A stretch of 64,000 nt of DNA from the NCBI GenBank assembly GCA_930633525.1, contig CAKNFP010000001.1:124001-188000 (forward strand). The letters are read 5' to 3'. A program made the position numbers and the translations under genes. This stretch comes from Hyphomicrobiales bacterium. Its GTDB lineage: Bacteria; Pseudomonadota; Alphaproteobacteria; Rhizobiales; Beijerinckiaceae. The notes beneath the pieces are model-generated. The model worked only from the letters and a program-made list of their open reading frames with translations, was not told where the DNA came from and made no database searches. Positions 15,951 to 32,557 of the stretch are shown piece after piece (position 1 is the stretch's first letter; every line of letters starts with the position of its first letter).

Positions 15951-15974
15951 TGCTTATGATACCTGGTGAATGCG

Positions 15975-17549: not shown

Positions 17550-17662
17550 TGCAATAACCCCTCGTTTTTGTTGGACGGTCGTTTCGCGTTTTGCGACCAT
17601 CGCCTCCCTGCGGATTTGGTGCGCCCGCGTCTTGGGCGTGTCGGTAGGTTCCCGCTTCCCGC

Positions 17663-18595: not shown

Positions 18596-18610
18596 ATCGC
18601 TCCTCCAAGA

Positions 18611-18645: not shown

Positions 18646-18720
18646 AGACGCACATTTCAATAAGCGCGATCCAGCCCGACGATGAAGGTCAAGCTGATGA
18701 CGATCGCTATTGCGCTATAA

Positions 18721-18738
18721 TCGTATAACAGTATACAA
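18721..18738. promoter_or_regulatory. Inverted repeat TCGTATA-n4-TATACAA, candidate autoregulatory operator
   Basis: The arms match at 6 of 7 positions around ACAG. The site ends 7 bp before the ATG of the GntR gene at 18746, so it overlaps the ribosome-binding area. It shares the TCGTATA half-site with 18621-18627. Autoregulation is inferred. Confidence 0.5.
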
Positions 18739-18745
18739 TCTGTAG

Positions 18746-19528
18746 ATGGTCAAGAGGCGCTTCGATAAATCGGCGGTTTTTTCTTTCCCGGCCCAACTCC
18801 GCGGAGAGCACGCCACGGCTGTCGACTGGGTGCCGCTGCGACCACGCACGCTTGTCGACATGGTGATCGAGGCTGTGGTCGCGGCGGTTTCGAGGGGGCT
18901 CATCCTGCCGGGCGACCGGGTTGTGGAAACTGAGCTTGCTCAGCGTCTCGGCATCAGTCGTGTGCCGGTGCGGGAGGCGCTGCGCGTCCTCCAAAGCCAG
19001 GGCCTCGTGACGAGCGAGCCCCACAAGAGCACGCGGCTCATGCCGGTGTCTCGGGAGCGGATCAACAATCTCATCGAAACGCGCGTTGCGCTGGAGACAA
19101 CGGCTGCCCTGCGGGCCATCCGCGAGGGCAGAAATGGCGAGGCGGAGTTGCGCATCTTGAATGATCGCCTGGCGCAGATGGAATACGCCAGTGCCCAGGA
19201 CGATTCGTATGGATTTGCGATGGCCGATGCGGATTTCCATCGGGCGCTCTGCCAGTTCAGCGGCAATGATGTTCTATGCGAGGTCTGGGAAGGTCTATCC
19301 CGACAAGCGACGATCTTTTTCGGGCTTTCAACGCTGTCCAAACCCATGACCGAGATCATCGAAGAGCATCTGTCGCTCATCGATGTTTTCCGCGGGGGCG
19401 ACATTGCTGTGGTAACGCATGCGCTTCAGGAACACATCGTTGATCAGACGCGGAAGGTCGATTTCGAGGGGATCGTGGCGGCCCGACGCGCTGAACGCGA
19501 CGCGATCGCACGTCAGGCCTCTGCCTGA
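18746..19528 (+). CDS. GntR-family transcriptional regulator, FCD subgroup
   Basis: The 260-residue protein has an unusually long N-terminus of about 30 residues before the winged helix (ILPGDRVVETELAQRLGISR, then VPVREALRVLQSQGLV). The FCD domain carries ligand/metal positions in ADADFHRALCQFSGN and EIIEEHLSLIDVFRGGD. It is divergent from the 2-hydroxyacid dehydrogenase/Dpp operon across 150 bp that hold two inverted repeats, so it probably represses that operon and itself. It converges with the LeuD-like gene. Confidence 0.94.
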   Translation: MVKRRFDKSAVFSFPAQLRGEHATAVDWVPLRPRTLVDMVIEAVVAAVSRGLILPGDRVVETELAQRLGISRVPVREALRVLQSQGLVTSEPHKSTRLMPVSRERINNLIETRVALETTAALRAIREGRNGEAELRILNDRLAQMEYASAQDDSYGFAMADADFHRALCQFSGNDVLCEVWEGLSRQATIFFGLSTLSKPMTEIIEEHLSLIDVFRGGDIAVVTHALQEHIVDQTRKVDFEGIVAARRAERDAIARQASA

Positions 19529-19531
19529 CGT
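19510..19531 (+). terminator. Hairpin overlapping the GntR stop codon
   Basis: ACGTCAGGC and GCCTGACGT form a perfect 9-bp stem with a CTCT loop, covering the last codons and TGA of the regulator gene. No T-run follows, so it is at best a weak or Rho-assisted terminator between convergent genes. Confidence 0.35.
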
Positions 19532-19607
19532 GAGCAAGGGGCCTGGGGTGCAGGTGTCGCAGGCTGCGCCAGGCTATGGCGTCTTCGAATTGCGCTGAAG
19601 ACCGCGA

Positions 19608-20234
19608 CTAGGCGCGTCTATCGTGGGCGTTTTGATACCACGGCGTCGCAGTTTCAGTCCGTGCTTCCCAGGCTTCAATATCCGACATGTGCTTGGTGGT
19701 AAGGCCAATGTCGTCCAGGCCTTCGAGAAGGACCAGGCGTTCCGCGGCGGGTATCGCGAAGGGGATAGGCTCGCCGCCTGGCCCCGAGAGTGTCTGGTTC
19801 TCGAGGTCGGCGGTAAACGGCGCGCCGTCGGCGTCGACGACACGCTGGGCCAGGGTGGCGAAGCTCTCCGTGTCGAGGATTACCGGCAGCACACCATTCT
19901 GCAGGCAATTCTCCCGGAACTGATCGGCGAGGCTCGGTGCGACGACGCAGGAAATGCCGTTGGCGAGAAGCGCCCAGACCGCGGCCTCGCGAGAGCTGCC
20001 GCAGCCGAAATTGGCGCCCGTCACCAGAATTGCCGGATTCTGGAATTGCGGCATGTTCAGCACGTGGCTCGGCACGGGCTCGCCCTTGTCGTCCCAACGG
20101 GAGCGCATGAAAAGCATCTTGCGATAGTCGGGCTGAAGTTTCCGGGCGAGCTGGATGGGCGAGATCTCGTCCGTGTTGATATCGTCTTCGAGCATCGGGA
20201 CCGCCGCGCCGGTCGCCCTCGTGAAAGCCTGCAT
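19608..20234 (-). CDS. leuD: LeuD-like small subunit of an aconitase-family hydro-lyase
   Basis: The 208-residue protein has the swivel domain of 3-isopropylmalate dehydratase small subunits: EDDINTDEISPIQLARKL near the start and NFGCGSSREAAVWALL at about 75-90. True LeuD proteins have REHAPWAL there, so A84 replaces a conserved His and P is also lost. The start lies right after the LeuC stop (TGA then ATG), so the subunits are made together. No leuA or leuB is nearby; the neighbours are catabolic. I therefore read it as a paralogue for another hydroxy-diacid, such as a substituted malate/maleate, with leucine synthesis as the alternative. Confidence 0.9.
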   Translation of the reverse strand: MQAFTRATGAAVPMLEDDINTDEISPIQLARKLQPDYRKMLFMRSRWDDKGEPVPSHVLNMPQFQNPAILVTGANFGCGSSREAAVWALLANGISCVVAPSLADQFRENCLQNGVLPVILDTESFATLAQRVVDADGAPFTADLENQTLSGPGGEPIPFAIPAAERLVLLEGLDDIGLTTKHMSDIEAWEARTETATPWYQNAHDRRA

Positions 20235-21641
20235 TCACGCCTCCGCTAGTTGGCGAACGTCGACGATGGCGCCGGCGATTGCCGCCGCGGCCGCCATGCC
20301 CGGGCTCACCAGATGGGTTCGCACACCGGGACCTTGCCGGCCCTCGAAATTGCGGTTTGTGGTGGAAAGCACCCGTTCACCGGGACGGCCGCGATCGCCA
20401 TTGCCGCCGGCGCACATCGAACAGGCGGATTCCGCCCAGTAGAAGCCCGCCTCGCGGAAGATGGCATCAAGGCCCAAGGCCTCGGCCTCGCGGCGCACGA
20501 TGGTTGAGCCGGGCGAGATCATGGCAACCACGCCTTCAGCGACCTTGCGGCCACGCACGATGGCCGCCGCCTCCTGCAGATCAGGAATGCGGCCGTTGGT
20601 GCAGGATCCGATGAAGACCCTGTCCACCTTCAGGCCCTGTAGTGGCTCGCCGGCCCGGAGGTCCATGTAGGTCAGTGCCTTGGTCAGGGCATGCCGGTCG
20701 GACTCTCCCTCGCCAAGCGACGCCGGTACGCTGTCGCGGATCCCGATAACCTGTCCCGGGGTAGTGCCCCATGTGATCTGCGGTTCAAGCGTGCCGCAAT
20801 CGATGGTGATATCCCGGTCGAATTCCGCGCCTTCGTCTGAATGCAGGGTGCTCCAGTAATCCAGTGCGCGATTCCAGTCCTCACCGATGGGAGCGAAGGG
20901 CCTTCCCTTCAGCCAGGCCAAGGTGGTCTCATCGGCCGCGACAAAGCCGCTCCGCCCGCCCATCTCGACGGTGAGGTTGCACAATGTCATGCGCGCTTCG
21001 ATGCTCATGGCGCGGACCACCGTGCCGGCATATTCGATGGCGTGCCCGTTTGCCCCGGAGACGCCGATCGTGCCGATGATATGCAGGGCGACATCCTTTG
21101 CCGTCACATGCGGCTGCAGCCTGCCTTCAAGGTTGATGCGCATGGTCTTCGGTCTCTTCATCGCGAGGACCTGCGTCGCCAGCACATGTTCGAGCTCTGT
21201 CGTCCCACAGCCGAAGGACAGCGCGCCGAGCGCCCCCACCGTCGCTGCGTGACTATCCGGAACGCAATCGGTCGCCCCGGGCAGCACCATGCCGAGCTCC
21301 GGCCCAATGACGTGGGAGATGCCTTGGTCGGGATCACCCACGTCAAAAATGCGAAAGCCAAATTCAGCCGCGCCGGCGCGTTGCGCGCGCAGGAACGGCG
21401 TGCCCTCCGGGTTGGTCGTATCGTCGCGGCCGGGCTGGCTGGATATCGTGTGGTCCTGAACCGCGAAGGTCAGGTCCGGCCGGCGAACCCGGCGCCCGGC
21501 CTTGCGCAGCTTCTCGAACGCCTTGGGGCCGTGCAGCTCATGGACGATATTGCGGTCCATGTAGATGATTTCGCGACCATCGATGCGCCGGGCTACAAGA
21601 TGGGCTTCCCAGATCTTATGAAAGAGCGTACGGGCGACCAT
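20235..21641 (-). CDS. leuC: LeuC-like large subunit of an aconitase-family hydro-lyase
   Basis: The 468-residue protein has the aconitase fold and three 4Fe-4S cysteines, C347 (IGSCTNGR), C407 and C410 (SACSMC). The active-site segment RNFEGRQG is kept. The sequence after the cluster is AGGNGDRGRPGERVLST, where leucine-pathway enzymes usually have LxMNxDxxxPGERCAST. It should catalyse dehydration and rehydration of a 2-hydroxy diacid. It lies 65 bp after the enoyl-CoA-hydratase-like gene and directly before the LeuD-like gene. Distant context and the altered LeuD pocket argue for a catabolic substrate. Confidence 0.92.
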   Translation of the reverse strand: MVARTLFHKIWEAHLVARRIDGREIIYMDRNIVHELHGPKAFEKLRKAGRRVRRPDLTFAVQDHTISSQPGRDDTTNPEGTPFLRAQRAGAAEFGFRIFDVGDPDQGISHVIGPELGMVLPGATDCVPDSHAATVGALGALSFGCGTTELEHVLATQVLAMKRPKTMRINLEGRLQPHVTAKDVALHIIGTIGVSGANGHAIEYAGTVVRAMSIEARMTLCNLTVEMGGRSGFVAADETTLAWLKGRPFAPIGEDWNRALDYWSTLHSDEGAEFDRDITIDCGTLEPQITWGTTPGQVIGIRDSVPASLGEGESDRHALTKALTYMDLRAGEPLQGLKVDRVFIGSCTNGRIPDLQEAAAIVRGRKVAEGVVAMISPGSTIVRREAEALGLDAIFREAGFYWAESACSMCAGGNGDRGRPGERVLSTTNRNFEGRQGPGVRTHLVSPGMAAAAAIAGAIVDVRQLAEA

Positions 21642-21706
21642 CGCTGCCTCTCCTAGGGCAAGTCCGTCTGTTGCGGACTTGCTCGGCTTAGAAATCGGAT
21701 CTTGGT

Positions 21707-22441
21707 CTAGATGCTCGGCTTGACCAGGGCCATTAGCGTACCGGCATATTCAGAAGCCATCTCAGGGGATAGCTGCGGTGCTTTGCTGATATACCGTTTG
21801 ATCGTCTCCAGCAGCAGCCGCTTGCGCGACGCCAGTGCTGAGAGATAGGCGGCGCAACTCTCCTCGAAGGCCTCTGCCGGAAACACCTTGCTCACCAGAC
21901 CAAGCGCCAGCGCGTCCTCAGCGGAAATTTCCTCGCCCGAATAAATCAGATGCGCCAGCGCTTTCTCAGGCAGCTTGCGTATAAGCGCAGACATGGCGAG
22001 CGTCGCCGGGATCGCATGCTTGATCTCGGGCAAGGCGAAGCGTGCGCCGTGCACGGCAAGGGTAATATCGCATCCGCCGGCCAATGCCGCGCCGAAGCCG
22101 ATGGCGTTGCCCTGGACGCAGGCGACGACAGGGATCGGGCATGCGGCGATGGCATCGTAGACGTCCAGCGTCACACCCATCTGCTTCTGGCGCGCATCCC
22201 AGGGCCGAGCTTCCGCCGGCTCTCCCTTGCCATTGCGGCCGAGGCAGAAGGCCGCTCCACCCGGTGCGATCGCGACAACCGAAACATCGGGATCCGCGCC
22301 CGCGATGCGGATCGCCTCGCTGAGCATCGTCATCTGTTGACGTGTCAGCACGTTTCCGGTGTCGGCGCCGCCCAGGTCAATCCAGGCGACAGCCGCTTCC
22401 ATCCTGACCAATCGCGGTCCGTTATCGGAAATTGTGAGCAT
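21707..22441 (-). CDS. Enoyl-CoA hydratase/isomerase family protein
   Basis: The 244-residue protein has the crotonase fold. The oxyanion-hole segments are visible as AFCLGRNGKG and the central NAIGFGAALAGGCDITLAV, followed by ARFALPEIKHAIPA. The usual first catalytic Glu region is not clearly kept, so hydratase, isomerase or hydrolase activity are all open. It heads the operon with the LeuC/LeuD-like genes and is divergent from the CMD-family gene. It may process a CoA ester on the same route as the LeuCD-like enzyme. Confidence 0.9.
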   Translation of the reverse strand: MLTISDNGPRLVRMEAAVAWIDLGGADTGNVLTRQQMTMLSEAIRIAGADPDVSVVAIAPGGAAFCLGRNGKGEPAEARPWDARQKQMGVTLDVYDAIAACPIPVVACVQGNAIGFGAALAGGCDITLAVHGARFALPEIKHAIPATLAMSALIRKLPEKALAHLIYSGEEISAEDALALGLVSKVFPAEAFEESCAAYLSALASRKRLLLETIKRYISKAPQLSPEMASEYAGTLMALVKPSI

Positions 22442-22452
22442 TTTTCCTCAGA

Positions 22453-22460
22453 TTGCATAC
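22453..22460. promoter_or_regulatory. TTGCATAC element in a divergent promoter region
   Basis: TTGCATAC is the exact complement of the GTATGCAA core of the palindrome at 29814-29827. It sits 12 bp before the enoyl-CoA-hydratase-like gene and in front of the divergent CMD gene. A common regulator, perhaps the GntR protein encoded at 29957, is a reasonable guess. Confidence 0.35.
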
Positions 22461-22551
22461 GAGATTTATGATAGTGCATTTTTAAATCTCCTACTAGTGT
22501 ATTAATTGAACGAGTTGCCGTACAAGTTTCCAGCGGTTGTGGAGCAGGTGG

Positions 22552-23121
22552 ATGAGTCGATTCGAGATCGCCGAGACCGATTGGGACGAGCGGCAGCAAG
22601 CCTTCGCGGGGCGCATGCGGGGCGGAGCGCGCGGCAAGATCGGCGGGCCCTTCCTCAATCTCCTGCCGTCGCCCGATCTCGCGCAACGTGTTGCGGATCT
22701 CGGTGAATGGCTGCGTTTCAAGGGTTCACTGGCCGCGGATGTGCGAGAACTGGTTACGCTCGCGGCTGCCGAATTCTGGCGCTGTCCCTATGAATGGCTT
22801 GCCCATGCGCCGCTGGCCCGCAAGGCCGGGTTGGACGTCACCGCACTGGCCGGCCTCGCGCGGGGAGAGAGCGATGAGTCGCTGACATCCTCCCAACGTG
22901 TCGCGCTCGAAGCCGCCCGGGCCGTGCTTCGTTCGGGCAAGCTGGATGATGCGCAGTTCCAAAGGGTCGCCGAGGTGTTCGGGCGCGAGGGGGCCCTGGA
23001 AATCATCTGTCTCTGCGGGTATTACGGGCTGCTCGCCATGGTCATCCATTCAGGCCATGCGGATGCCGAGCAGCCTGACTGGCAAGAGGCGGTCAATACC
23101 ACGCTTCAGACCGCCGGCTGA
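22552..23121 (+). CDS. Carboxymuconolactone decarboxylase (CMD/AhpD-like) family protein
   Basis: The 189-residue protein shows the CMD-family pattern ELVTLAAAEFWRCPYEWLAHAPLARKAGL and a C-terminal EIICLCGYYGLLAMVIH segment. The AhpD-type CxxC is absent, so a peroxidase role is unlikely. A decarboxylase, lactonase-like or binding role is possible. The start at 22552 follows GGAGCAGGTGG. It is the first of four plus-strand genes (CMD, AbrB-type, two alpha/beta hydrolases) that are closely spaced. Confidence 0.9.
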   Translation: MSRFEIAETDWDERQQAFAGRMRGGARGKIGGPFLNLLPSPDLAQRVADLGEWLRFKGSLAADVRELVTLAAAEFWRCPYEWLAHAPLARKAGLDVTALAGLARGESDESLTSSQRVALEAARAVLRSGKLDDAQFQRVAEVFGREGALEIICLCGYYGLLAMVIHSGHADAEQPDWQEAVNTTLQTAG

Positions 23122-23123
23122 CG

Positions 23124-24170
23124 ATGCGGGCTGTTCTCCACGCAATCGCCGCGTTGTTGATCGGCGCATGTGGCGGCACGGTTTTTCTGTTCCTCCATCT
23201 GCCGTTGCCGTGGACACTCGGCTCACTGACCGCTGTGGGCATCGCTGCGGCGATGGGGAGTCCGTTCCTCATTCCGGCCCAGGTCCGGCATGTCGCCCGC
23301 CCCGTCGTTGGTGTACTGGCTGGCAGCACCTTCACGGCAGATGTGTTGGCCAGCATGCTGCTCTGGTGGCCGATCATCCCGGCGATGCTCGTCTACACGT
23401 TGGCCACGGCGTTCCTTGGCTGGCTCTACTTCCAGCGGCTGTGCAAATTTGATCGCGGCACGGCACTGTTCGCCAGCTTTCCTGGCGGTCTTGGCGAACT
23501 GACCCTGCTCGGTGGCTCGCTCGGCGCGGACAGTCGCAAGCTTGCGCTCGTCCATTCGGCGCGCGTCATCACGGTCATCTTCTGCGTGCCCTTCCTGGTG
23601 CAAGCGCTGGTCGCCGGGCCTCTGACCGGCAGCAATGTCGCGGTCGCGGCCGCCCACAGCAACACCATCGCGCCACTCGACTGGCTCATTCTCGGGGCCT
23701 GCGCGGTTGGCGGATATTTCGCGCGCAACGCCTTCCGCCTTGTCGGCGGTGCGATGGTCGCGGCCCTGCTGTTCAGCGCCGTGGCGCATGCGAGCGGGCT
23801 GACAGGCGCGCAGCCGCCCTCGTGGCTGGTCGCGCTGGTTCAGGTGACGATCGGCGCCATCGTCGGCTCAAGATTGGGCGGCACCACCCATCGCGAGCTC
23901 GGGCGCACCATGTTGCAGGGCGCGCTCTGGTCGCTCGTGCTGATCGGTCTGGCCGTCGTGACCGCCTTCGCTTGCAGCCAGCTCATCGACTTCGACGTAC
24001 CGACCCTCATTCTGGCGCTTTCGCCGGGCGGCTTGGTGGAAATCACGCTGCTGGCCTACGCGATAGGCTTCGAGGTCGCCTTTGTCGTCACGACCCAGAT
24101 CTGCCGGATCGTCGGCACGATGGTTCTGGCGCCGCTGATGTTTCAGCTTTTCGAGAACAGAAATCAATGA
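23124..24170 (+). CDS. AbrB-family membrane protein (AmoA-type, putative transporter)
   Basis: The 348-residue protein is strongly hydrophobic with about ten membrane helices in two similar halves; GSTFTADVLASMLLWWPIIP and VGSRLGGTTHRELG mark equivalent places. Both halves hold the LSPGGL/FPGGL motif (FASFPGGLGELTLLG and LALSPGGLVEITLLA). This family is often misnamed after the AbrB regulator or ammonia monooxygenase. It is an integral membrane protein of unknown transport function. It starts 2 bp after the CMD gene, and its stop overlaps an ATG of the next frame. A role in moving the pathway substrate is plausible. Confidence 0.9.
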   Translation: MRAVLHAIAALLIGACGGTVFLFLHLPLPWTLGSLTAVGIAAAMGSPFLIPAQVRHVARPVVGVLAGSTFTADVLASMLLWWPIIPAMLVYTLATAFLGWLYFQRLCKFDRGTALFASFPGGLGELTLLGGSLGADSRKLALVHSARVITVIFCVPFLVQALVAGPLTGSNVAVAAAHSNTIAPLDWLILGACAVGGYFARNAFRLVGGAMVAALLFSAVAHASGLTGAQPPSWLVALVQVTIGAIVGSRLGGTTHRELGRTMLQGALWSLVLIGLAVVTAFACSQLIDFDVPTLILALSPGGLVEITLLAYAIGFEVAFVVTTQICRIVGTMVLAPLMFQLFENRNQ

Positions 24171-24184
24171 CGATGGGAGACGAT

Positions 24185-24991
24185 ATGAGCGGAACCGTAT
24201 CGGCCGAGATGATCACACGCGGCGCGGAGGCCACGCTTGAAGTTCTGAAACAGGGCGAGGGCCCGCTGGTGGTCATGCTGCCGTCGCTGGGCCGCCCGGC
24301 GACGGACTTCGATCCCATCGCCGGCATCGTCGCGGAGCGCGGATATACGGTGTTGCGGCCGCAGCCCCGCGGCATCGGCCGGAGCACGTCGCCAGCCCCT
24401 TATAAAGACCTGCACGACTGTGCCGCGGATATCGCGACCGTGATCGAGGCCTTCGGCGGTGGCCCGGCCTTCGTCGCCGGACATGCGTTTGGCAACCGGG
24501 TCACGCGCATGCTGGCAACGGATCGGCCGGATCTGATCAGCGGCATATCGATCATCGCGGCCAATGTCGGTATCGCGCCCAGTGGTCCAAAGATGCGCGC
24601 CGCCATTCGGGCAAGCGCCAATGCCGACCTGCCGGACGACGAGCGGCTCGAGGCGCTGCGTTTTGCATTTTTCGCGCCCGGCAACGATCCGACGGGCTGG
24701 CTGAAGGATTGGTACCCGGAGGTGCTGGCGGCCCAGCGCCACGCCGGCGACCAGACGCCGCGTAGCGAGGACTATGCCGGCGGCACGGGGCCGTTGCTCT
24801 ATCTGCAGCCGGACACTGATCCGCTCGCCCATGTCGAGGATGCCGAAATTTTCAAGAGGGAGCTGGGCGATCGCGTGACCGTCGTTGTCATTCCCCATGC
24901 CAGCCATGCGGCCTTGCCCGAGCAACCGGATTTCATCGCCGCGCAATTGCTCTCCTTCATGGAGCGCGTCCATCCTGCGAGGGCGGCATGA
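24185..24991 (+). CDS. Alpha/beta-hydrolase-fold protein with Ala at the nucleophile position
   Basis: The 268-residue protein has the alpha/beta-hydrolase core: the oxyanion region MLPSLGRPATDF, the RPQPRGIGRS turn and the C-terminal HASHAALPEQPDF with the expected catalytic His. The nucleophile elbow reads AGHAFGN, so A101 stands where Ser, Cys or Asp normally sits. Hydrolysis through an acyl-enzyme is therefore not expected; lyase, cofactor-free or binding roles are possible. The start at 24185 follows GGGAGA; the ATG at 24167 that overlaps the AbrB-family stop is an alternative. The stop overlaps the next hydrolase gene (ATGA). Confidence 0.88.
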   Translation: MSGTVSAEMITRGAEATLEVLKQGEGPLVVMLPSLGRPATDFDPIAGIVAERGYTVLRPQPRGIGRSTSPAPYKDLHDCAADIATVIEAFGGGPAFVAGHAFGNRVTRMLATDRPDLISGISIIAANVGIAPSGPKMRAAIRASANADLPDDERLEALRFAFFAPGNDPTGWLKDWYPEVLAAQRHAGDQTPRSEDYAGGTGPLLYLQPDTDPLAHVEDAEIFKRELGDRVTVVVIPHASHAALPEQPDFIAAQLLSFMERVHPARAA

Positions 24992-25791
24992 CGGAGCTGC
25001 ACTGGACTGAACGCGACGGCGTCAGCCTCCATTACAAGCTGTCGGGATCCGGCAGGAGCCTCGTGCTGATCCACGAGCTTTCCGGGACGTCGGACAGCTG
25101 GGACGAGGTCCTGAAGCGGCTAGGCGGCGGCTACCGCGTGCTGCGCGCGGACCAGCGTGGCGCGGGGCTTTCCGAAAAAGTCCGGCAGCCTTTCGATGTC
25201 GCCGCGATGGCGCAGGATACCCTTGCCGCGATCACGGCTGCCGGCCTGGAAGCGCCCTACACGATTGCCGGTATAGCCTCCGGCGCGGCGATCGCCGTCG
25301 AGCTGGCTGCCATGCTGGGCGGTGACGTCGAGCAGCTTCTGCTGTGCTCGCCGGCGCTGAAGGCCAATCCCGACAGGCGCGACTACCTTCTGCAGCGCGG
25401 CGCGAAGGCTTGTCGGGAAGGTATGCGGTCGGTGATCGATGTTGTGTTCGAGCGCTCCTATCCGGAGGATATGATCGCGGATCGAGCCGTCTATGACGAA
25501 TACCGCTCCCGGTTCCTTGCCATCGACCCGTTCTGCTATGAACAGGCAAACGCCATGCTGGCCAACGTCGACGCCACGGTGGCGAAATCGAAGCTCAACT
25601 GCCCGGTGTTGGTGCTCGCTGGAACGCGTGACCTGCTGCGTCCGGTCGATCATGTGCGTGCCGACGTCGCCGGTATTGCTCACTGTGACCTGCGTGTCGT
25701 CGAAAGCGGTCACATCATGATCCTGCAGGCGCCGGAAGCGGTGGCCGGCGCCCTGCGCGACCTTCACCAGTCGAGGGGTGCGAAGGCGTAA
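24988..25791 (+). CDS. Second alpha/beta-hydrolase-fold protein with Ala at the nucleophile position
   Basis: The 267-residue protein starts with the common WTERDGVSLHYKLSGSG and has HELSGTSDSW, ADQRGAGLSEKV, GTRDLLRP (acid) and ESGHIMILQAPE (His). The elbow is AGIASGA, which puts A97 at the nucleophile position of G-x-Nu-x-G, with S98 one residue late. It thus keeps the Asp-His pair but not the nucleophile, as does the protein encoded just upstream. It ends in convergence with the metallo-beta-lactamase-fold gene, overlapping it by 28 bp. Confidence 0.9.
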   Translation: MTELHWTERDGVSLHYKLSGSGRSLVLIHELSGTSDSWDEVLKRLGGGYRVLRADQRGAGLSEKVRQPFDVAAMAQDTLAAITAAGLEAPYTIAGIASGAAIAVELAAMLGGDVEQLLLCSPALKANPDRRDYLLQRGAKACREGMRSVIDVVFERSYPEDMIADRAVYDEYRSRFLAIDPFCYEQANAMLANVDATVAKSKLNCPVLVLAGTRDLLRPVDHVRADVAGIAHCDLRVVESGHIMILQAPEAVAGALRDLHQSRGAKA

Positions 25792-26651
25792 TCGTCGCCG
25801 CGTCGCTCAACAAGCCCGCGGTAGGGCCATCCGAAATGCATCGGCATGACGATGGCCCGGCTGCGCGCCGCCCGCGCCAGGAACGCCGCCCGCGTCTGCC
25901 GGGCGCGCTCGGGCCAGATGCAGTAGCGCGTGTTGAGCTCCGGAAAGCGAATCTGGAGCGGGCTATGCATGATGTCGGCTGCAAAGACGGCGCTTCCGCC
26001 CGAGCCGTCGGTCAGCCATAGCGCGACTTGCCCGGGCGTGTGGCCGGCTGCATCCTCGACGCTGAACCGGTCGAGCAGCAGATCGCCCGGCTCGAAGAGA
26101 TCGACAAGCCCGGCATCGATGAGCGGGACCACGCTGTCAGCCCAGGCACCGCTGTTGATGCCCGTGTCGCCCCCCTCGTAGCGCTCGCGCACATGGTCGA
26201 ATTCCACACGCGGAATATGGTGGCGCGCATTGGGAAAAGCGGGTCGCCAGGCATCGTCCCGCATAATGGTGCATCCGCCGACGTGGTCGGCATGCAGGTG
26301 GGTCAGGATGACGTCCGTGACGCTGTCCGCGGTCGCGCCCGCCGCCGCGAGCCAAGCCGGGGCGAGCGTGTTCAGCCTATTCTGGCGTTCTGCGGGGCGG
26401 GTCTTTCCGTTGCCGATACCGGGGTCGATGAGCACGGTCGTCGTGCCGAATTGCACGATCCAGATCTGAATCGTGACGACCAGTCGATCGATCGACGGCT
26501 GATAGTGATGAGGAGCGAGCCAGCCGGCTTCACCATCGAGTGCGGCCGCTGGCAGATCGGGAAAAAGGAAAGCCGGATCATGGGTCGGCCCGGACATCTC
26601 CAGGACGCGCGTGATGCGGAGGTCGCCGAATTGGCAAGACTGACATAGCAT
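25764..26651 (-). CDS. Metallo-beta-lactamase-fold hydrolase
   Basis: The 295-residue protein has the HLHADHVGG zinc motif at about residue 110, the downstream His in GHTPGQ, the bridging Asp in FAADIMHS and the last His in MPMHFGWP. All ligands for a two-metal site are therefore present. It resembles the lactonase/quorum-quenching-like or N-acyl hydrolase branch without signal peptide. A lactone or ester intermediate of the neighbouring pathway is a possible substrate. It is downstream of a terminator that ends the TTT operon, so it likely has its own promoter. Confidence 0.93.
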   Translation of the reverse strand: MLCQSCQFGDLRITRVLEMSGPTHDPAFLFPDLPAAALDGEAGWLAPHHYQPSIDRLVVTIQIWIVQFGTTTVLIDPGIGNGKTRPAERQNRLNTLAPAWLAAAGATADSVTDVILTHLHADHVGGCTIMRDDAWRPAFPNARHHIPRVEFDHVRERYEGGDTGINSGAWADSVVPLIDAGLVDLFEPGDLLLDRFSVEDAAGHTPGQVALWLTDGSGGSAVFAADIMHSPLQIRFPELNTRYCIWPERARQTRAAFLARAARSRAIVMPMHFGWPYRGLVERRGDDYAFAPLDW

Positions 26652-26671
26652 TTCCGTCTCCCCATGAAGGA

Positions 26672-26709
26672 TAAAGAAAAGCAGCCAGTCCCATCGCGGG
26701 GCTGGCTGC
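26672..26709 (-). terminator. Rho-independent terminator after the TTT operon
   Basis: On the minus strand a stem of GCAGCCAG/CTGGCTGC extended by CCC/GGG (26681-26709) is followed by TTTTCTTTAT. It lies 21 bp after the stop of the Bug-family gene and before the metallo-beta-lactamase-fold gene. Confidence 0.8.
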
Positions 26710-26729
26710 TGATAGTGGACCAGAAAATC

Positions 26730-27713
26730 TCAGCGCGCGACGAGCTTGATACCGGCTTTCTCAAGGATACCCTTCAGCTGCGCGGTGTATTCGGTGATGA
26801 ACTTCAAGGTTTCCTCGGGAGTCGTGAAGGCAGCCTCGAAGCCATTTTCGACAACGTAGTCTTTCCATTCCTGCGTCTCGGTCGCCTTCCGGATCAGGTC
26901 GCTGTAGTACGCGACGACTTCCTTCGGTGTGCCGGGCGGCGCGACGATGCCGCGGATCTGCGGCAGATTCGGAATGTTGAAGCCCGCCTCCTGGAGCGTC
27001 GGAACATCCGGGAAGCTCGGTAGCCGCTTGTCTGCCACGGCAGCGATCACGCGCATCGCGCCACTGCGGACCTGAGAGGTTGCTTCACCGGGCTCCACGA
27101 TCATCATGTTGACGTGGCCACCGAGCAGCGCTGAAAGCCGCTCCCCACCCGATGGGAACGAGATGAACTGCCAGTCCGCGCCGGTCACGCCCATCAACAG
27201 CTGGCGCAAGACGTTCTCGCGCGCGAGCACCGATCCGCCCGACTGGCTGAGCTTGCCGGGCGTGGCCTTGGCGGCGTCGATGAAGTCCTGAAGCGTCTTG
27301 TATGGGGCGTCTGCCTTGACGGCGATAAGGCCCGGCTCACGGATAACCAGAGCGACAGGCGTCATGCTGGTCAACGGGTTCGTCGCTTCGGCCGAAACAA
27401 GCGGGTCCGTGATCCAGATGTTTGTGAATACGCCCAGCGTGTTTTCGTTGCCGGCCTTGCTCGCCAGATAGGCGGCTGCGGTCGTGCTGCCACCGCCGGG
27501 CTTGTTGGCGACCTGGATCCGAACGGGAGAGAGCTTGTTCTTATCGATGACCGAGATCAAGGCGCGGGCGAAAACGTCATTGCCCGATCCGGGGCCGGCA
27601 TGGACCGCGATTTCCAGCGGGCGCTTGGGCGTAAACTGTGCCTGTGCCGTGGACATGGGGGCGAGTGTCATGGTGGCCACGAACGCCGTGGCCAGCAAGG
27701 CAGAGAGTTTCAT
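26730..27713 (-). CDS. Bug-family periplasmic binding protein of a tripartite tricarboxylate transporter
   Basis: The 327-residue protein has a Sec signal peptide (MKLSALLATAFVATMTLAPM, cut near AQA) and the TctC/Bug pattern: RPLEIAVHAGPGSGNDVFAR, NKPGGGSTTAAAYLA, VGVTGADWQFISFPSGGE-like segment and LPSFPDVPTLQEAGF. Bug proteins bind carboxylates such as citrate, tartrate, terephthalate or nicotinate-like acids. It is the last gene of a tctB-tctA-tctC operon ended by a terminator. The ligand cannot be read from sequence; the surrounding genes suggest a dicarboxylic acid. Confidence 0.95.
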   Translation of the reverse strand: MKLSALLATAFVATMTLAPMSTAQAQFTPKRPLEIAVHAGPGSGNDVFARALISVIDKNKLSPVRIQVANKPGGGSTTAAAYLASKAGNENTLGVFTNIWITDPLVSAEATNPLTSMTPVALVIREPGLIAVKADAPYKTLQDFIDAAKATPGKLSQSGGSVLARENVLRQLLMGVTGADWQFISFPSGGERLSALLGGHVNMMIVEPGEATSQVRSGAMRVIAAVADKRLPSFPDVPTLQEAGFNIPNLPQIRGIVAPPGTPKEVVAYYSDLIRKATETQEWKDYVVENGFEAAFTTPEETLKFITEYTAQLKGILEKAGIKLVAR

Positions 27714-27745
27714 GCGTTCCTCCTATGGACGATTGTTGGTTTGCT

Positions 27746-29257
27746 TCAGGCGCCTTCGCTAATCGCGCGGACGCGCGCGCGATTGAACCAGCTGACCAGT
27801 GGCAACAGCAGGATGACGACTGCCGCTATCAGCAGGACCAGCGAGATGGGACGCTGGAAGAAGGTTGTGAGGTCGCCCTGCGACATCATCAGCGATTGGC
27901 GCAGCGCACGCTCCATGGCGTCGCCCAGCACGAAGCCGAGAATGAGCGGCGCGCTCGGGAAGCCCGTCTTGGCCATCAGGAAGCCGAGCAGACCGAATGC
28001 CGCGAGCAGCTCGACGTCGAAGATGCGTTCCGAGACGCTGTAGGCCCCGATGATGGACAGGCCGAAGATGACGGGAAACAGGATCCACGTCGGCACGCGC
28101 AAGAGCTGAGCGAAGAGCGGAACGAGCGGCAGGTTGAGAAGAAGCAGGACCACGTTGCCGACATACATCGAGGCGACGAGACCCCAAAAGATATCCGGTG
28201 ATTCCGTGATCATCAGCGGGCCGGGACGGATGCCCCAGAGAACGAGCGCCGACAACAGGATGGCGGTGGTGCCGCCGCCCGGAATGCCGAGCGTCAGCAG
28301 TGGGACGAGTGCGCCGCCGGTATCCGCGTTATTCGCGCCTTCCGGTGCTGCAAGCCCTTCCGGCGCCCCCTTGCCAAACATCTCCTTGCGCTTCGAGACA
28401 GCCTTCTCGATGCCGTAGGCGATGAAGGAGGCGATCGCCGACCCCGCGCCCGGCAGCACGCCGATGATGAAGCCGGTGAATGAGCCGTTCACGAATGCGA
28501 AGCGCGACGCCTTCAGTTCCTCACGGCTTGGCAGGAGATTGCGGAAGCCCTTCGGCACCGGGATCAGCGTGCCTTCCTGCCTGTGCTGGATGGTGGTCAG
28601 GATTTCCGCGATGGCAAAGACACCGATGGCGATCACGACGAAGTCGAGCCCGCCGAGAAGTTCACTGCGGCCAAAGGTGAAGCGTGACTGCGCGGAGAAA
28701 AGATCGATACCCACGGTGGATATCCATAGGCCGACCAGCAGCGCCAGCAGTCCCTTGAGCAGCGAGGCGCCCGAAAGCAGGACGACGAGCGAGAGGCCGA
28801 AGGCCATCAACGCGAAATATTCAGGCGCCGAGAAGGACAGGGCGAAGCGGGCGACCGCGGGGGCGACGAGCGTCAAAAGCACGATACCAACCGTGCCCGC
28901 GATGAAGGACGCGATCGCCGCGATGCCGAGCGCCGCGCCGGCGCGGCCGTTGCGCGCCATCTGGTAGCCGTCGATGCAGGATACGACGGAGCTCGACTCG
29001 CCCGGCATGTTGAGCAGGATCGACGTCGTCGAGCCACCGTACTTGGCGCCGTAATAGATGCCCGTCAGCATGATGATGCCGCCGGCAGGGTCCATGTTCA
29101 GCGTCAGAGGCATCAGGATTGCGATCGTCGCCGCTGGCCCGAGGCCGGGTAGAATTCCGACGACGGTCCCGAGAAAGCACCCGACGAAGCACCAGAGCAG
29201 GTTCTGCGGCACCAGAGCGATGCCGAAGCCATGGGCGAGCCCGTTGATAATGTCCAT
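27746..29257 (-). CDS. tctA: TctA-family large membrane subunit of a tripartite tricarboxylate transporter
   Basis: The 503-residue protein has about twelve membrane helices and typical TctA motifs: FLGTVVGILPGLGPAATIAI and the second-half PLLTLGIPGGGTTAILL, plus GSTTSILLNMPGE. The start at 29257 lies 2 bp after the TctB stop; longer frames upstream run through the TctB gene. It is the proton- or sodium-coupled channel that takes substrate from the Bug protein. Confidence 0.96.
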   Translation of the reverse strand: MDIINGLAHGFGIALVPQNLLWCFVGCFLGTVVGILPGLGPAATIAILMPLTLNMDPAGGIIMLTGIYYGAKYGGSTTSILLNMPGESSSVVSCIDGYQMARNGRAGAALGIAAIASFIAGTVGIVLLTLVAPAVARFALSFSAPEYFALMAFGLSLVVLLSGASLLKGLLALLVGLWISTVGIDLFSAQSRFTFGRSELLGGLDFVVIAIGVFAIAEILTTIQHRQEGTLIPVPKGFRNLLPSREELKASRFAFVNGSFTGFIIGVLPGAGSAIASFIAYGIEKAVSKRKEMFGKGAPEGLAAPEGANNADTGGALVPLLTLGIPGGGTTAILLSALVLWGIRPGPLMITESPDIFWGLVASMYVGNVVLLLLNLPLVPLFAQLLRVPTWILFPVIFGLSIIGAYSVSERIFDVELLAAFGLLGFLMAKTGFPSAPLILGFVLGDAMERALRQSLMMSQGDLTTFFQRPISLVLLIAAVVILLLPLVSWFNRARVRAISEGA

Positions 29258-29259
29258 GA

Positions 29260-29733
29260 TTAGATACCTAGCGCGCCGATGGGCAGATCGAGCTGCAACA
29301 AGACGACAAATATGAGCTTGAACACCGCAGTAATCGCCACAGATGCCACGATCGCTCGGAGCAGCGACTGCCGGAAGACGACGTGGATCAGGCAAAAGCA
29401 AAGCAGGGTGAAGGCGATGACGAAGCCGAGATAGGGCATGAAAGCCGTCGCGACGACAAACGCGAGCCAAGTAACGATGGCGCGGCCAACGCCCCGCCAA
29501 TCGATCGGCTCATGCGCCTCGCCGACGCCTCGGAAGAGAGCGCAGCCGACAAGCCCTAACGACAACACCACAATACAGATGCCGTACCACAGGGGGAAAA
29601 AACCAGGTCCCGGCCCGTTTGTGGTCATATAGTCCCAGGTGGAAGCCTTTGAGATTATGTAGGTCCCTAAGGCCGCCAAGAGAGCGCCGGAAACGATATC
29701 CCCGTCGCGAACGATACTGCCAAGTCGTGACAT
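29260..29733 (-). CDS. tctB: TctB-family small membrane subunit of a tripartite tricarboxylate transporter
   Basis: The 157-residue protein has four predicted membrane helices, beginning with GDIVSGALLAALGTYIISKA and the TNGPGPGFFPLWYGI motif that marks TctB. It is the first gene of the transporter operon, divergent from the GntR regulator at 29957. The 223-bp gap between them holds a palindrome and several TTATG/TATGCA elements. Confidence 0.94.
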   Translation of the reverse strand: MSRLGSIVRDGDIVSGALLAALGTYIISKASTWDYMTTNGPGPGFFPLWYGICIVVLSLGLVGCALFRGVGEAHEPIDWRGVGRAIVTWLAFVVATAFMPYLGFVIAFTLLCFCLIHVVFRQSLLRAIVASVAITAVFKLIFVVLLQLDLPIGALGI

Positions 29734-29813
29734 AAAGGGCGTTCCCCTGAATATTATGCACTTTATGGTCGCAATTTATGCATCGTTGTCCTTTGCGTCA
29801 ACATAAATCGAAT

Positions 29814-29827
29814 TCTTGTATGCAAGA
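29814..29827. promoter_or_regulatory. Palindrome TCTTG-TATG-CAAGA, candidate GntR operator
   Basis: Perfect 5-bp arms flank TATG, giving the core GTATGCAA. It lies in the divergent region between tctB and the GntR gene. TTATGCA elements also occur at 29754-29760 and 29776-29782 closer to tctB. The same 8-mer occurs, inverted, at 22453-22460. Confidence 0.5.
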
Positions 29828-29956
29828 TGACCTGTTTCGTATTGCACGCGGCGCGCAGCGGGGTTAAATCAGGATGCACTGCGTTTGTGTGCTGTCATCA
29901 TGCGCGGACAGGTTTATGCGTCGTACGCAATGGTGCCGGGACGGAGCGAAGGTTGA

Positions 29957-30637
29957 ATGGAAGTAGCGCCGAATTCGCGGAACAGGCTGCGTAACAAGAT
30001 CGAGGAGGATATCGTCAACGGCGTATTCCTCCCCGGGCAGCGCATGGATGAGGTGTCGGTCGCGGAGCGGTTCGGTGTCTCGCGAACGCCGGTACGTGAG
30101 GCGTTGATGCAACTGGCTTCAATCGGGCTGGTGGAAATTCGCCCGCGCCGTGGCGCCATCGTCGCGCAGATAGGGCCAGAGCGCCTCGTCCAGATGTTCG
30201 AGGTGATGGCTGAATATGAAAGCATGGCCGGCCGTCTGGCTGCGCGCAGATACACGGATGCCGACCGGGAGGCGATCTCGATACGCCACGCGGCCTGTGC
30301 CGATGCCGTGGCACGCGATGACTCCGTGACATACTATGAAGAGAACGAGGCTTTCCACTTCGCCATCTATGCGGCGAGCCACAACGATTTCCTGATTGAA
30401 CAGGCCACCGCGCTGCACAGGCGCTTGAAGCCTTACCGCCGCCGCCGCCAGCGCTTTCGCAAACGCATGCACGTCTCCTTCGCCGAACACGAGCGGATCG
30501 TGGAAGCCATTTTCGCGATGGATGGCGAGCGGGCATCCGGCCTGTTGCGCTCCCACATCATCATGCAGGGCGAGCAATTCAACGACTTCATCGCATCGCT
30601 GCAGCTCGACGATATGGGCGACCCGGCAGGTCGCTGA
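29957..30637 (+). CDS. GntR-family transcriptional regulator, FCD subgroup
   Basis: The 226-residue protein has the winged helix (IVNGVFLPGQRMDEVSVAER then FGVSRTPVREALMQL) and a helical FCD domain with metal/ligand positions in ENEAFHFAIYAASHN and HVSFAEHERIVEAIF. It is divergent from the TTT operon and converges with the ICL/PEP-mutase-family gene, ending 1 bp before it. It is the likely regulator of carboxylate uptake and probably of the flanking catabolic genes. Confidence 0.94.
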   Translation: MEVAPNSRNRLRNKIEEDIVNGVFLPGQRMDEVSVAERFGVSRTPVREALMQLASIGLVEIRPRRGAIVAQIGPERLVQMFEVMAEYESMAGRLAARRYTDADREAISIRHAACADAVARDDSVTYYEENEAFHFAIYAASHNDFLIEQATALHRRLKPYRRRRQRFRKRMHVSFAEHERIVEAIFAMDGERASGLLRSHIIMQGEQFNDFIASLQLDDMGDPAGR

Positions 30638-30638
30638 C

Positions 30639-31544
30639 TTAAGTCCTGGGGCTGTTCCGCCGCGCCAGGATGTCTGCAGCGCGATCGTCGTAGGATTTTT
30701 CTCTGGACTGGAATTCGCCCAATCTGACGAGCTCGTAGTACTCGGGCAAGGGCATGAGTTGGTCGGCGAGATCGGCCGTGCTGCCGGTCGCTGCAAGCTT
30801 GGCGATTGCCTTTCGTACGCCCTGCGCAGCCGCAAATAAGCTGATCGACGGCATCGTGACCGCCGCTACCCCGATCTCGCGCATGCCTTCCAGGCCCGCT
30901 GGATGCTCACCGGCGGCTTGCGACAGCGTGGCGAAATGCGGACCGGGTATTTCCGCCATCGAACGGGTGATCTGCTCACGCGTATCGGCACCCTGCGGTT
31001 TGGCCATGTCGACGCCGGCCTCGACGAACATCTGGCAGCGCTCGATCGCATCGTCGAGCCCTGTCAGGCTCAGGCAATCCGTGCGCGTGCCGATGAAGAA
31101 GCGCTCATCCGTCCGAGCATCGAGCGCGGCTGCAATGCGCGACAGCATGATCTCGACCGGCACGACCTGCTTTCCCGGCAAATAGCCGCAGCGGTTAGGA
31201 AAGACCTGGTCGCTGAAGAACAGACCGGCCGCCCCCGTCGCCTCGAGAGCGCGGACCGCCTTCGCAACATTATGCACGCCGCCGAAGCCGGTATCCGCGT
31301 CCACATAGACCGGGATTTCAACGGCGCCGACGATGCGGGCGTAGTGATCGACCATGTCCCGCATGTTCGACTGGCCGCCGTCAGGCTCGCCCATCATCGA
31401 GCCGATCGCCGCATAGCCTCCGGCGACGAGTGCGTGAAACCCTTCCGCCTCGATGATCCGCGCCGAAAGTCCGTCATAGGCGCCGGGCATGACCAGCAGA
31501 TCGCGGTCATCGACGAGTTCCCGGAACTTCGTGCGTCGGCTCAT
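30639..31544 (-). CDS. Isocitrate lyase/PEP mutase superfamily lyase with altered active-site loop
   Basis: The 301-residue TIM-barrel protein has PGAYDGLSARI, the metal-binding VDADTGFGG (D82, D84) and the loop SDQVFPNRCGYLPGK. Methylisocitrate lyase and relatives have EDQ and K[KR]CGH; here S111 replaces Glu, N117 replaces Lys and Y121 replaces His, while C119 is kept. The superfamily includes methylisocitrate lyase, dimethylmalate lyase and oxaloacetate decarboxylase, all acting on 2-oxo or 2-hydroxy diacids. Given the LeuCD-like hydro-lyase nearby, cleavage of a substituted malate to pyruvate and an acid is a good guess. It is divergent from the RraA-like gene. Confidence 0.92.
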   Translation of the reverse strand: MSRRTKFRELVDDRDLLVMPGAYDGLSARIIEAEGFHALVAGGYAAIGSMMGEPDGGQSNMRDMVDHYARIVGAVEIPVYVDADTGFGGVHNVAKAVRALEATGAAGLFFSDQVFPNRCGYLPGKQVVPVEIMLSRIAAALDARTDERFFIGTRTDCLSLTGLDDAIERCQMFVEAGVDMAKPQGADTREQITRSMAEIPGPHFATLSQAAGEHPAGLEGMREIGVAAVTMPSISLFAAAQGVRKAIAKLAATGSTADLADQLMPLPEYYELVRLGEFQSREKSYDDRAADILARRNSPRT

Positions 31545-31618
31545 GTGAAGGCTCCTGCGAAAAGACCCGTTGCTGATCGGTCCCGTTCTAGATCTCAGCC
31601 GGATTTATGTACACAAAA

Positions 31619-31662
31619 ATGCTTGCCTTGTAGACAGAAGGCGCGGTGTTGTCGGCAAGCAT
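31619..31662. promoter_or_regulatory. 9-bp inverted repeat in the lyase/RraA divergent region
   Basis: ATGCTTGCC (31619-31627) and GGCAAGCAT (31654-31662) are perfect complements 26 bp apart. GACA/TGTC-type half-sites lie between them. Position in a 299-bp divergent region suggests an operator or looped site; a leader hairpin is the alternative. Confidence 0.4.
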
Positions 31663-31843
31663 CCGGCTGCCTGCCCTCATCCGGAGATGCGACCGCAGCG
31701 CGGTGCCTATTCATCGGACATCAGACAAATTTTCGGTAAGATCGGCGTCTGACAGTGGCCTTAGGCTGCCTTCTCGCTCATTATCTCCGGCGGGAGTGAC
31801 GCCTCACAGGCATCCAATCAGATCACGCAAGCCGGAGAAGCCG

Positions 31844-32557
31844 ATGCTGTCTGCAGAAACCCGCCAGAAGCTGAAATCCGTGAGCACCGCGACGCTGAGC
31901 ACGGCGCTGTTCAAGCGGGGATTGCGCAACCAGTTCATCCAGGATGTCAGCCCCTTGCAGTTCAAGGGCGATAACATGGTGGGTGAGGCTTTCACGCTCC
32001 GCTATATCCCGGCGCGCGAGGATCTGAATACCATCGACGTTTTTCGCGACCGCTCCCACCCGCAGCGCAAGGCCGTTGAAGAATGCCCGCCGGGCGCTGT
32101 GATGGTCTTCGACAGCCGCAAGGATGCGCGTGCGGCTTCGGCTGGCGCCATTCTCGTCTCCCGGCTCATGATGCGCGGGGCCGCCGGTGTCGTCACCGAT
32201 GGCGGTTTTCGCGACAGCCCCGATATCGCGGCCCTTGCCATCCCAGCTTATCACCATCGCCCTTCTGCACCGACCAATCTGACCCATCATCAGGCGCTCG
32301 ACATCAATGTGCCGATCGGATGCGGTGATGTCGCCGTGTTTCCCGAGGATGTCATCGTCGGCGATGGTGAGGGCGTGATCGTCATCCCGGCCCATCTCGC
32401 CGACGAGATCGCGAGCGAGGCGGTGGAAATGACCGCCTTCGAGGATTTCGTCCAGCAGGAGGTCCTCAAGGGTCGCTCAATCCTCGGTCTTTATCCACCC
32501 ACAGATCCCCAGACGCAGACCGATTACACGGCATGGCGGCAGGCCAACGGTCGCTAG
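31844..32557 (+). CDS. RraA-like protein (HMG/CHA-aldolase or RraA family)
   Basis: The 237-residue protein has the RraA fold motifs: LSTATLSTALFKRGLRNQF near the start, ASAGAILVSRLMMRGAAGVV, then TDGGFRDSPDI, and the C-terminal VGDGEGVIVIPAHLADEI. In the family the GxxRD motif and an acidic group bind Mg and pyruvate-type ligands in 4-hydroxy-4-methyl-2-oxoglutarate aldolases. In a catabolic cluster a pyruvate aldolase or oxaloacetate decarboxylase role is likelier than RNase E inhibition. The start at 31844 has GGAGAAG upstream; a longer frame from 31646 has no support. Confidence 0.9.
   Translation: MLSAETRQKLKSVSTATLSTALFKRGLRNQFIQDVSPLQFKGDNMVGEAFTLRYIPAREDLNTIDVFRDRSHPQRKAVEECPPGAVMVFDSRKDARAASAGAILVSRLMMRGAAGVVTDGGFRDSPDIAALAIPAYHHRPSAPTNLTHHQALDINVPIGCGDVAVFPEDVIVGDGEGVIVIPAHLADEIASEAVEMTAFEDFVQQEVLKGRSILGLYPPTDPQTQTDYTAWRQANGR

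Follow-up and report, generated by a model that had tools for sequence, protein, structure and literature searches.

The window analyzed here is a stretch of 64,000 nucleotides (G000:C1:124001-188000) from the 7.16-Mb genome of a Hyphomicrobiales bacterium. From position 19608 to position 31544, it carries a block of genes in which a LeuC/LeuD-like hydro-lyase (LeuCD) is combined with a divergent protein of the ICL/PEP-mutase superfamily, a tripartite tricarboxylate transporter (TTT), a GntR-type regulator, and two alpha/beta-hydrolase-fold proteins that lack a nucleophile. We refer to the ICL/PEP-mutase-family protein as the lyase, a label that we infer from its sequence. Families were assigned by using Pfam and NCBIfam models, and the features of the block are as follows (positions in the window).

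19608..20234, minus strand: LeuD-like small subunit of an aconitase-family hydro-lyase (PF00694; above the cut-off of the NCBIfam LeuD models; motif SREAAVWA)
20235..21641, minus strand: LeuC-like large subunit (PF00330; best model PRK12466, TIGR00170 just above cut-off; motif CSMC-AGGNGD; placed by a tree)
21707..22441, minus strand: crotonase-fold protein that has Ala in place of the first of its two usual catalytic Glu residues (PF00378)
22453..22462, no strand: operator-like site of the divergent crotonase/CMD promoter, TTGCATACGA, also present in L036, L037, and L041
22537..23121, plus strand: carboxymuconolactone-decarboxylase (CMD) family protein, start uncertain (PF02627)
23124..24170, plus strand: AbrB-type membrane protein (PF05145; TIGR03082)
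24167..24991, plus strand: alpha/beta-hydrolase 1, with Ala at the nucleophile position (GHAFGNR) and Asp and His kept (sequence comparison)
24988..25791, plus strand: alpha/beta-hydrolase 2, PcaD-like, with Ala at the nucleophile position (GIASG) and Asp and His kept (NCBIfam, sequence)
25764..26651, minus strand: MBL-fold hydrolase with an HLHADH metal motif (PF00753)
26652..26729, minus strand: tctC-MBL intergenic stretch with a terminator-like hairpin and a U-rich tail (RNA fold)
26730..27713, minus strand: TctC substrate-binding protein (PF03401)
27746..29260, minus strand: TctA large permease (PF01970; 91% identity in Devosia enhydra, L041)
29260..29733, minus strand: TctB small permease (PF07331)
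29816..29825, no strand: operator-like palindrome of the divergent tctB/gntR promoter, TTGTATGCAA, located likewise in L036, L037, and L041
29957..30637, plus strand: GntR-FCD regulator of the island (PF00392 and PF07729)
30639..31544, minus strand: divergent ICL/PEP-mutase superfamily protein, a probable C-C lyase with an NRCGYLPGK loop (PF13714; fold; active-site comparison)

The block and its boundaries

LeuD, LeuC, and the crotonase form one minus-strand run, from which CMD, the AbrB-type gene, hydrolase 1, and hydrolase 2 diverge on the plus strand, with 4-base overlaps between the AbrB-type gene and hydrolase 1 and between hydrolase 1 and hydrolase 2 (the start of hydrolase 1 was taken from a 274-aa database entry). 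These are followed by a minus-strand TctB-TctA-TctC run with the MBL gene after it, the plus-strand GntR-FCD gene, and the minus-strand lyase gene, the last two being convergent with one base between them. The TTT importer is complete in its single run. A sequence-only reading of the window had named these families, and all of them were found, including both hydrolase-fold proteins without a nucleophile; it had also assigned the unit its own carboxylate importer and GntR regulator, and TctBAC and GntR-FCD indeed lie within it. The AbrB-type gene had been overlooked.

The run from LeuD to the lyase is syntenic in two genomes of the same genus (G002 and G003) and in Devosia enhydra, which belongs to another genus, and because of this synteny, the grouping goes beyond chance. 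It is a genuine block that acts as one unit. A third genome of the genus, G001, has neither the LeuC clade (best match, 52%) nor the lyase (best match, 33%), and its DNA similarity to the window ends at 31709. The RraA-like gene at about 31841-32557 on the plus strand is 95% identical in G001, where it sits beside the same TerB/GATase/Inh neighbors. No RraA match of at least 60% identity was found in any of 27 loci that carry the island hydrolase 1, many of them on short contigs. Because G001 keeps this gene without the block, it belongs to the backbone. Thus, of a block once drawn from 19608 to 32557, the part up to 31544 stands, and the RraA-like gene, which had been counted in as a possible pyruvate aldolase, falls outside. 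Position 31646, the start of the longest open reading frame, is an unlikely start for RraA.

On the other side, G002 is missing window positions 13666-19613, and its copy of the block adjoins the preceding acyl-CoA-dehydrogenase-family gene; because G002 misses this stretch, it is separate from the block. Genes at 14117-19528, which encode a dipeptide-type ABC importer, a D-2-hydroxyacid dehydrogenase, and a second GntR-type regulator, represent a separate insertion or loss relative to G002.

LeuCD and its divergent partner

The genome has four LeuC-like genes. In a LeuC tree of 50 rows (built by a quick method, with some long branches, and leaving out L001 as a duplicate of L124, L003-L011 as duplicates, the AcnA-type aconitase L002, and the partial gene L058), 19 island-type rows, including one from G193, form one clade with an SH-aLRT support of 100. 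The 26 biosynthetic-type rows, among them E. coli LeuC and L124 from the same genome, stand apart. The cluster-cysteine region reads CSMC-AG(G/S)NGD(R/K)G in 19 of 19 island-type loci versus CSMC-L(A/G)MNxD in 25 of 25 biosynthetic-type loci. Likewise, LeuD has SRE(A/G)AVW in all 19 island-type loci (SREAAVWA in the window), while SREHAPWA is found in two biosynthetic-type loci (the sole LeuD matches among those 25), in L124, and in E. coli. As judged from the tree and these motifs, the island LeuCD is a non-biosynthetic pair. The sequence-only reading had suspected as much, and the tight grouping with biosynthetic LeuCD that would have spoken against it does not occur in the tree.

The lyase departs from its known relatives at the active site. 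In Pseudomonas aeruginosa PrpB, which has the loop motif KRCGH, the Mg pocket consists of D60, D87, D89, and E117, and pyruvate touches Y45, S47, G48, G49, and R160 (PMC11982470). These numbers appear to be the E. coli numbers plus 2, and residues are given below in E. coli PrpB numbering. Residues were counted in the best 120 of 1877 hits, the window protein included; being the closest hits, they represent the clade by choice. The loop Cys, Arg158, and Asp58, Asp85, and Asp87 are retained in 120 of 120. Glu115 of the Mg pocket is replaced throughout (by Ser in 103, Gly in 9, Thr in 4, and Asn in 4), as are Lys121 (Asn in 117, Ser in 3), His125 (Tyr in 120), Glu188 (Met in 62, Gln in 52, Ile in 5, His in 1), and Ser45 (Gly in 119, Val in 1). 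Asn210 is Thr in 115 and is kept in 5.

A Roseomonas protein is intermediate: Glu115, Lys121, and Asn210 are kept, while the His has become Tyr and Glu188 has become Gln. In a lyase tree with flagged long branches, whose alignment left out the duplicates L003, L005, and L009-L011 and matches shorter than 140 aa, it is sister to 20 island rows, with SH-aLRT support of 97 for those 20 and of 99 when it is included. Because this protein is intermediate, divergence of the clade from known lyases seems to have been stepwise. The window lyase scores below the cut-off of all eight NCBIfam models listed (PrpB model, 205.5 versus 354.4), and its best PDB match by sequence is the petal death protein, 1zlp, at 159.1 bits. 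A predicted model has the ICL/PEP-mutase fold; it is weak in the active-site loops (pLDDT of <50 at residues 45-60, 85-88, and 120-122), and VIA-align places PrpB, PEP mutase, and petal death protein entries within about 2 Z units, so it does not discriminate among them. The residue comparison covered PrpB and 1zlp.

The pairing of the two enzymes is conserved. A scan of named genomes for the hydrolase 1 family (best 80 of 153 places; patterns GHAFGNRV or (F/Y)AFFAPGN) yielded the 27 loci in which hydrolase 1 identity is at least 60%; presence of other genes was scored by identity thresholds, and many contigs are short. LeuD is found in 18 of the 27, the lyase in 17, LeuC in 16, the crotonase in 9, and TctA in 8. 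An orphan TctC-type binding protein is found in 13, a GST in 12, and an arylmalonate-decarboxylase (AMDase)-family protein in 3. Devosia enhydra has the whole block in full synteny. Microvirga antarctica has LeuCD, the lyase, MBL, both hydrolases, the crotonase, and TctBAC, with a LysR-type gene instead of GntR; there, MBL is next to LeuCD, and the two hydrolases are neighbors.

All three loci fetched with LeuC (G002, G003, and G193) are paired with the lyase. In G193, LeuC, LeuD, and the lyase are adjacent and are accompanied by two MmgE/PrpD dehydratase-family genes, the first immediately next to LeuC and the second about 4.3 kb past the lyase, as expected for citrate/malate-type dehydration chemistry. 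The one plasmid locus fetched with the lyase, on plasmid p546-2 of Roseomonas haemaphysalidis (L131), also has LeuCD, in the order GntR-TctC-LeuC-LeuD-lyase; this reduced module is accompanied by HMG-CoA-lyase-family and CoA-transferase genes and several TctC-type binding proteins. LeuCD and the ICL/PEP-mutase-family protein are therefore conserved together across several bacterial families, in most cases next to a nucleophile-less hydrolase, and the co-conservation anticipated by the sequence-only reading held. As a weak control, no lyase was found within 1.5 kb on either side of 25 biosynthetic-type LeuC genes, a distance at which the window lyase, 9 kb off, would be missed too. Also, a single 20-kb stretch around the biosynthetic-type LeuC of the same genome had no lyase match.

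The island clade is rare in the genomes sampled, and its relatives are mainly in named Hyphomicrobiales. With an E cut-off of 1e-168, the LeuC clade was detected in 1 of 296 other genomes of the order and 0 of 397 other genomes of the phylum; with a cut-off of 1e-75, the lyase was detected in 0 of 384 other genomes of the class. Among 59 other relatives, 2, each from this genus, have LeuC orthologs (93 to 94% identity). The order, class, and phylum sets were sampled, and scoring in each genome was limited to its few best candidates, so the rarity is an estimate. A plasmid-borne or mobile island was also considered, and protein queries of a plasmid collection with the lyase and hydrolase 1, not with the window DNA, gave no sign of it: there was one lyase match (48.5%, Roseomonas), and hydrolase 1 homologs in 11 records were 37.5 to 42.7% identical.

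Regulatory sites and accessory proteins

The two divergent promoters of the block carry similar operator-like sites. TTGYATRCAA, with up to one mismatch, has three matches in the window, of which two lie in the tctB/gntR promoter (223 bp) and the crotonase/CMD promoter (roughly 110 bp). Both sites recur at corresponding positions in G002, G003, and Devosia and so are conserved in four genomes, although the same-genus sites are shared by descent and the pattern was picked after seeing the window. The Devosia promoters are 51% and 61% identical to those of the window, and these two sites are the only matches in its 20.8-kb locus. In random sequence of the same make-up, the chance of at least one match is 0.019 (crotonase/CMD) and 0.07 (tctB/gntR) for the window and 0.0035 and 0.037, respectively, for Devosia. 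The Microvirga locus has no match with up to one mismatch. Placement and conservation of these putative sites support a single regulon without proving it.

Hydrolases 1 and 2 lack a Ser, Cys, or Asp nucleophile at the elbow, unlike catalytic Ser-His-Asp alpha/beta-hydrolases. Hydrolase 1 has Ala here in all 120 listed relatives and in 81 of 82 loci, the remaining locus having Asp; complete copies of the gene retain the catalytic Asp and His. That Ala is part of one of the two patterns used to retrieve loci. In hydrolase 2, it is Ala in four of four loci. Of the two Glu residues that we take to be catalytic in the crotonase, the first is missing in each of 15 loci, a set in which some genomes contribute duplicate stretches. 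These proteins represent coherent families rather than single degraded genes. A fold search with the hydrolase 1 model (mean pLDDT, 92) returned generic alpha/beta-hydrolases alone (esterases, dehalogenases, and C-C hydrolases), and no function was taken from it. The curated models nearest to MBL are lactonases, with scores below cut-off (NF047979, 66.5 of 360 bits). More distant relatives of the nucleophile-less hydrolase 1 (L067-L120 except L079; 38 to 49% identity) occur in Achromobacter, Bradyrhizobium, sphingomonads, Actinomycetota, and Chloroflexi. They keep the Ala in 52 of 53 cases, again subject to the retrieval pattern that contains it, and the stretches covered showed no LeuCD match.

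Elsewhere in the window, a flavin reductase, an ABC importer, and an acyl-CoA-dehydrogenase-family gene lie in a row at 7472-13602, resembling a reduced-flavin monooxygenase (organosulfur-type) cluster, and a tRNA-Ala (CGC) gene lies at 41167-41242.

A proposed route and its alternatives

With slightly better than even confidence, we propose that the block is a rare, accessory, GntR-controlled, TTT-fed catabolic island that imports and degrades a substituted C4-dicarboxylic acid of the malate or maleate type. We infer the chemical steps, their order, and the substrate from known reactions of the families (aconitase, isopropylmalate isomerase, and ICL). The acid would be taken up by TctBAC, the substrate perhaps arriving as a lactone, and the GntR-FCD protein would sense the acid or a product of it at TTGYATRCAA-like sites. 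Aconitase and isopropylmalate isomerase dehydrate and rehydrate their substrates, and the LeuCD-like enzyme may do the same along a series of 2-R-malate, R-maleate, and 3-R-malate, so that a hydroxyl is moved or added. The lyase, with its loop Cys kept, would then split the resulting 2-hydroxy acid in a Mg-dependent reaction to yield a smaller acid along with an alpha-oxo acid, either glyoxylate or pyruvate. An upstream lactone or the side chain may be handled by the nucleophile-less hydrolases, the crotonase, MBL, and CMD. An alkyl-malate or alkyl-maleate substrate is plausible, and the GST and AMDase-family enzymes could serve in cis-trans isomerization of a maleate-type acid. Naming one substrate from neighboring genes (GST, orphan TctC, AMDase-family, MmgE/PrpD, HMG-CoA-lyase, and CoA-transferase genes) was tried and rejected, as this evidence is too thin.

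Several known systems come close to the island. In the methylcitrate cycle, as in the island, an aconitase-family hydratase (AcnD or AcnB) is followed by an ICL-superfamily lyase (PrpB); however, the island has a two-subunit LeuCD-type hydro-lyase, no citrate-synthase-family gene is among the Pfam hits of the block, and its lyase lacks Glu115, Lys121, His125, and Glu188 of PrpB and falls short of the PrpB model. With leucine biosynthesis, the island shares the LeuCD families, the long LeuC length, and scores above the NCBIfam cut-offs, but its proteins lie in a separate clade with their own motifs. The petal death protein and related 2-alkylmalate/oxaloacetate lyases include the best PDB match of the lyase; in the island protein, the canonical E, K, H, and E are replaced.

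Pairs of LeuCD and an ICL-family protein recur in other LeuC clades, namely, at L122 and L123 in the same genome and at L038, L039, and L040 in other genera. These also have importer genes nearby, but of the ABC type, by sequence, rather than TTT (branched-chain type at L122 and L123, as read by eye from sequence). At the loop, Glu, and Asn residues that were compared, L122, L123, and L039 have canonical lyases, while the Cys is absent from those of L038 and L040. At L123 (G000:C1:3874000-3893900), LeuCD is adjacent to the ICL-family gene, with BKACE, HpcH/HpaI aldolase, and isochorismatase-family genes; at L122 (G000:C1:354000-373900), LeuCD is about 9 kb from the lyase, which has MmgE/PrpD next to it, and there is an Oxidored_FMN (NADH:flavin-oxidoreductase-family) gene. 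More tentatively, the island may encode an undescribed C-C-cleaving route in which a new ICL/PEP-mutase clade, without the Lys, His, and Glu but with the Cys, works with a non-biosynthetic LeuCD and a nucleophile-less hydrolase on a branched or lactonized dicarboxylate, and LeuCD and ICL-type pairs beside importers may be a general catabolic cassette, with three in this genome.

Several observations weigh against a catabolic island of this kind, some of them by favoring an alternative. TTGYATRCAA occurs at chance frequency in the whole window (3 found versus 2.99 expected); all that stands out is where the sites lie and that they are conserved. The lyase promoter has two-mismatch sites only. 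The LeuCD signature fades with distance: G193 has CAGGMLD in LeuC and RETAVW in LeuD, and Roseomonas has CAGVNGD and REHAAW, with REHA kept. Linkage to hydrolase 1 is not obligate, as 9 of the 27 loci lack LeuC, LeuD, and the lyase (4 of the 9 have TctA); six of these are short or end at the gene, and the length of L044, L060, and L063 (20.8, 16.5, and 13.8 kb) is sufficient for the absence to be real. Also, the LeuCD-lyase core of G193 has no hydrolase 1 within 20 kb.

The alternative that survives best, although we consider it rather unlikely, is that the ICL/PEP-mutase-family protein acts on an oxo acid, as a decarboxylase, hydrolase, or isomerase, instead of being a C-C lyase of a hydroxy acid, with LeuCD feeding a different end step. 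The Lys, the His, and two Glu residues common to PrpB and the petal death protein are lost in the island protein; because residues common to known superfamily lyases are lost, C-C cleavage is not assured. Replacement of these four and of Ser45 in every listed relative, and of Asn210 in 115, fits such a change of reaction, as does the automatic annotation of the Roseomonas relative as an oxaloacetate decarboxylase. Nevertheless, the loop Cys, the pyruvate-contacting Arg, and the three Mg-pocket Asp residues are retained in all 120, and pairing with LeuCD recurs in clades with canonical lyase residues (L122, L123, and L039).

Less probable still is a patchwork in which the pathway comprises LeuCD, the lyase, hydrolase 1, and the TTT importer, while CMD, AbrB, MBL, and hydrolase 2 are unrelated passengers. 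Among the 27 loci, CMD (at least 40% identity) and AbrB recur in Devosia only, and MBL and hydrolase 2 recur in Devosia and Microvirga only. A terminator-like hairpin with a U-rich tail lies between tctC and MBL (-29.2 kcal/mol versus -21.4 for shuffles; z, -2.54; unlisted by a pattern scan with a shorter loop limit), and because of this hairpin and U-rich stretch, MBL may be on a separate or attenuated transcript. By contrast, the CMD-AbrB-hydrolase genes share a divergent promoter and an operator-like site with the crotonase-LeuCD genes, the 4-base overlaps join AbrB to hydrolase 1 and hydrolase 1 to hydrolase 2, and the Microvirga arrangement places MBL next to LeuCD and hydrolase 2 next to hydrolase 1.

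Nicotinate fermentation uses an aconitase-superfamily hydratase, DmdAB, and an ICL-superfamily lyase, Dml, on an alkylated malate, and the sequence-only reading had taken this pair as its model. A strict dimethylmaleate/dimethylmalate route with enzymes homologous to these would account for the same two superfamilies, and automatic names in one source call some relatives 2,3-dimethylmalate lyase. We regard it as improbable. The long-type island LeuC scores 269.7 against a cut-off of 410.15 for TIGR02086, of which we take DmdA to be a member, and LeuD scores 59.7 against 108.95 for TIGR02087 ("LeuD/DmdB family"), a comparison with models alone. Further differences are the TTT importer and the lyase active site, which is unlike those of PrpB and the petal death protein in its Lys, His, and two Glu positions. 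Membership in the DmdAB/Dml pair is thus not borne out, and we know of no other step of nicotinate fermentation among the Pfam families of the block. Finally, a spare leucine-pathway LeuCD that lies beside a carboxylate importer by chance would explain why NCBIfam models accept both subunits (TIGR00170, 579.3 versus a cut-off of 560.25, with the LeuC relative in L059 below it at 543.3; TIGR00171, 148 versus 116.25), but it is very improbable given the biosynthetic-type LeuC with SREHAPWA LeuD elsewhere in the genome (L124), the separate clade, the changed motifs, and the conserved lyase pairing.

The component families of the island are already known; their combination is without description among the matches listed, in part, from open-licence literature. 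Automatic names for the clade include 3-isopropylmalate dehydratase, methylisocitrate lyase, 2,3-dimethylmalate lyase, oxaloacetate decarboxylase, and pimeloyl-ACP methyl ester carboxylesterase. If the proposed catabolic island is real, these names would mislead for the whole clade, and the residue signature of CSMC-AGGNGD in LeuC with RCGY in the lyase would help to separate its core members. The island would then provide a new reaction to test in a superfamily that has been well studied, together with a delimited set of genes for finding its substrate.

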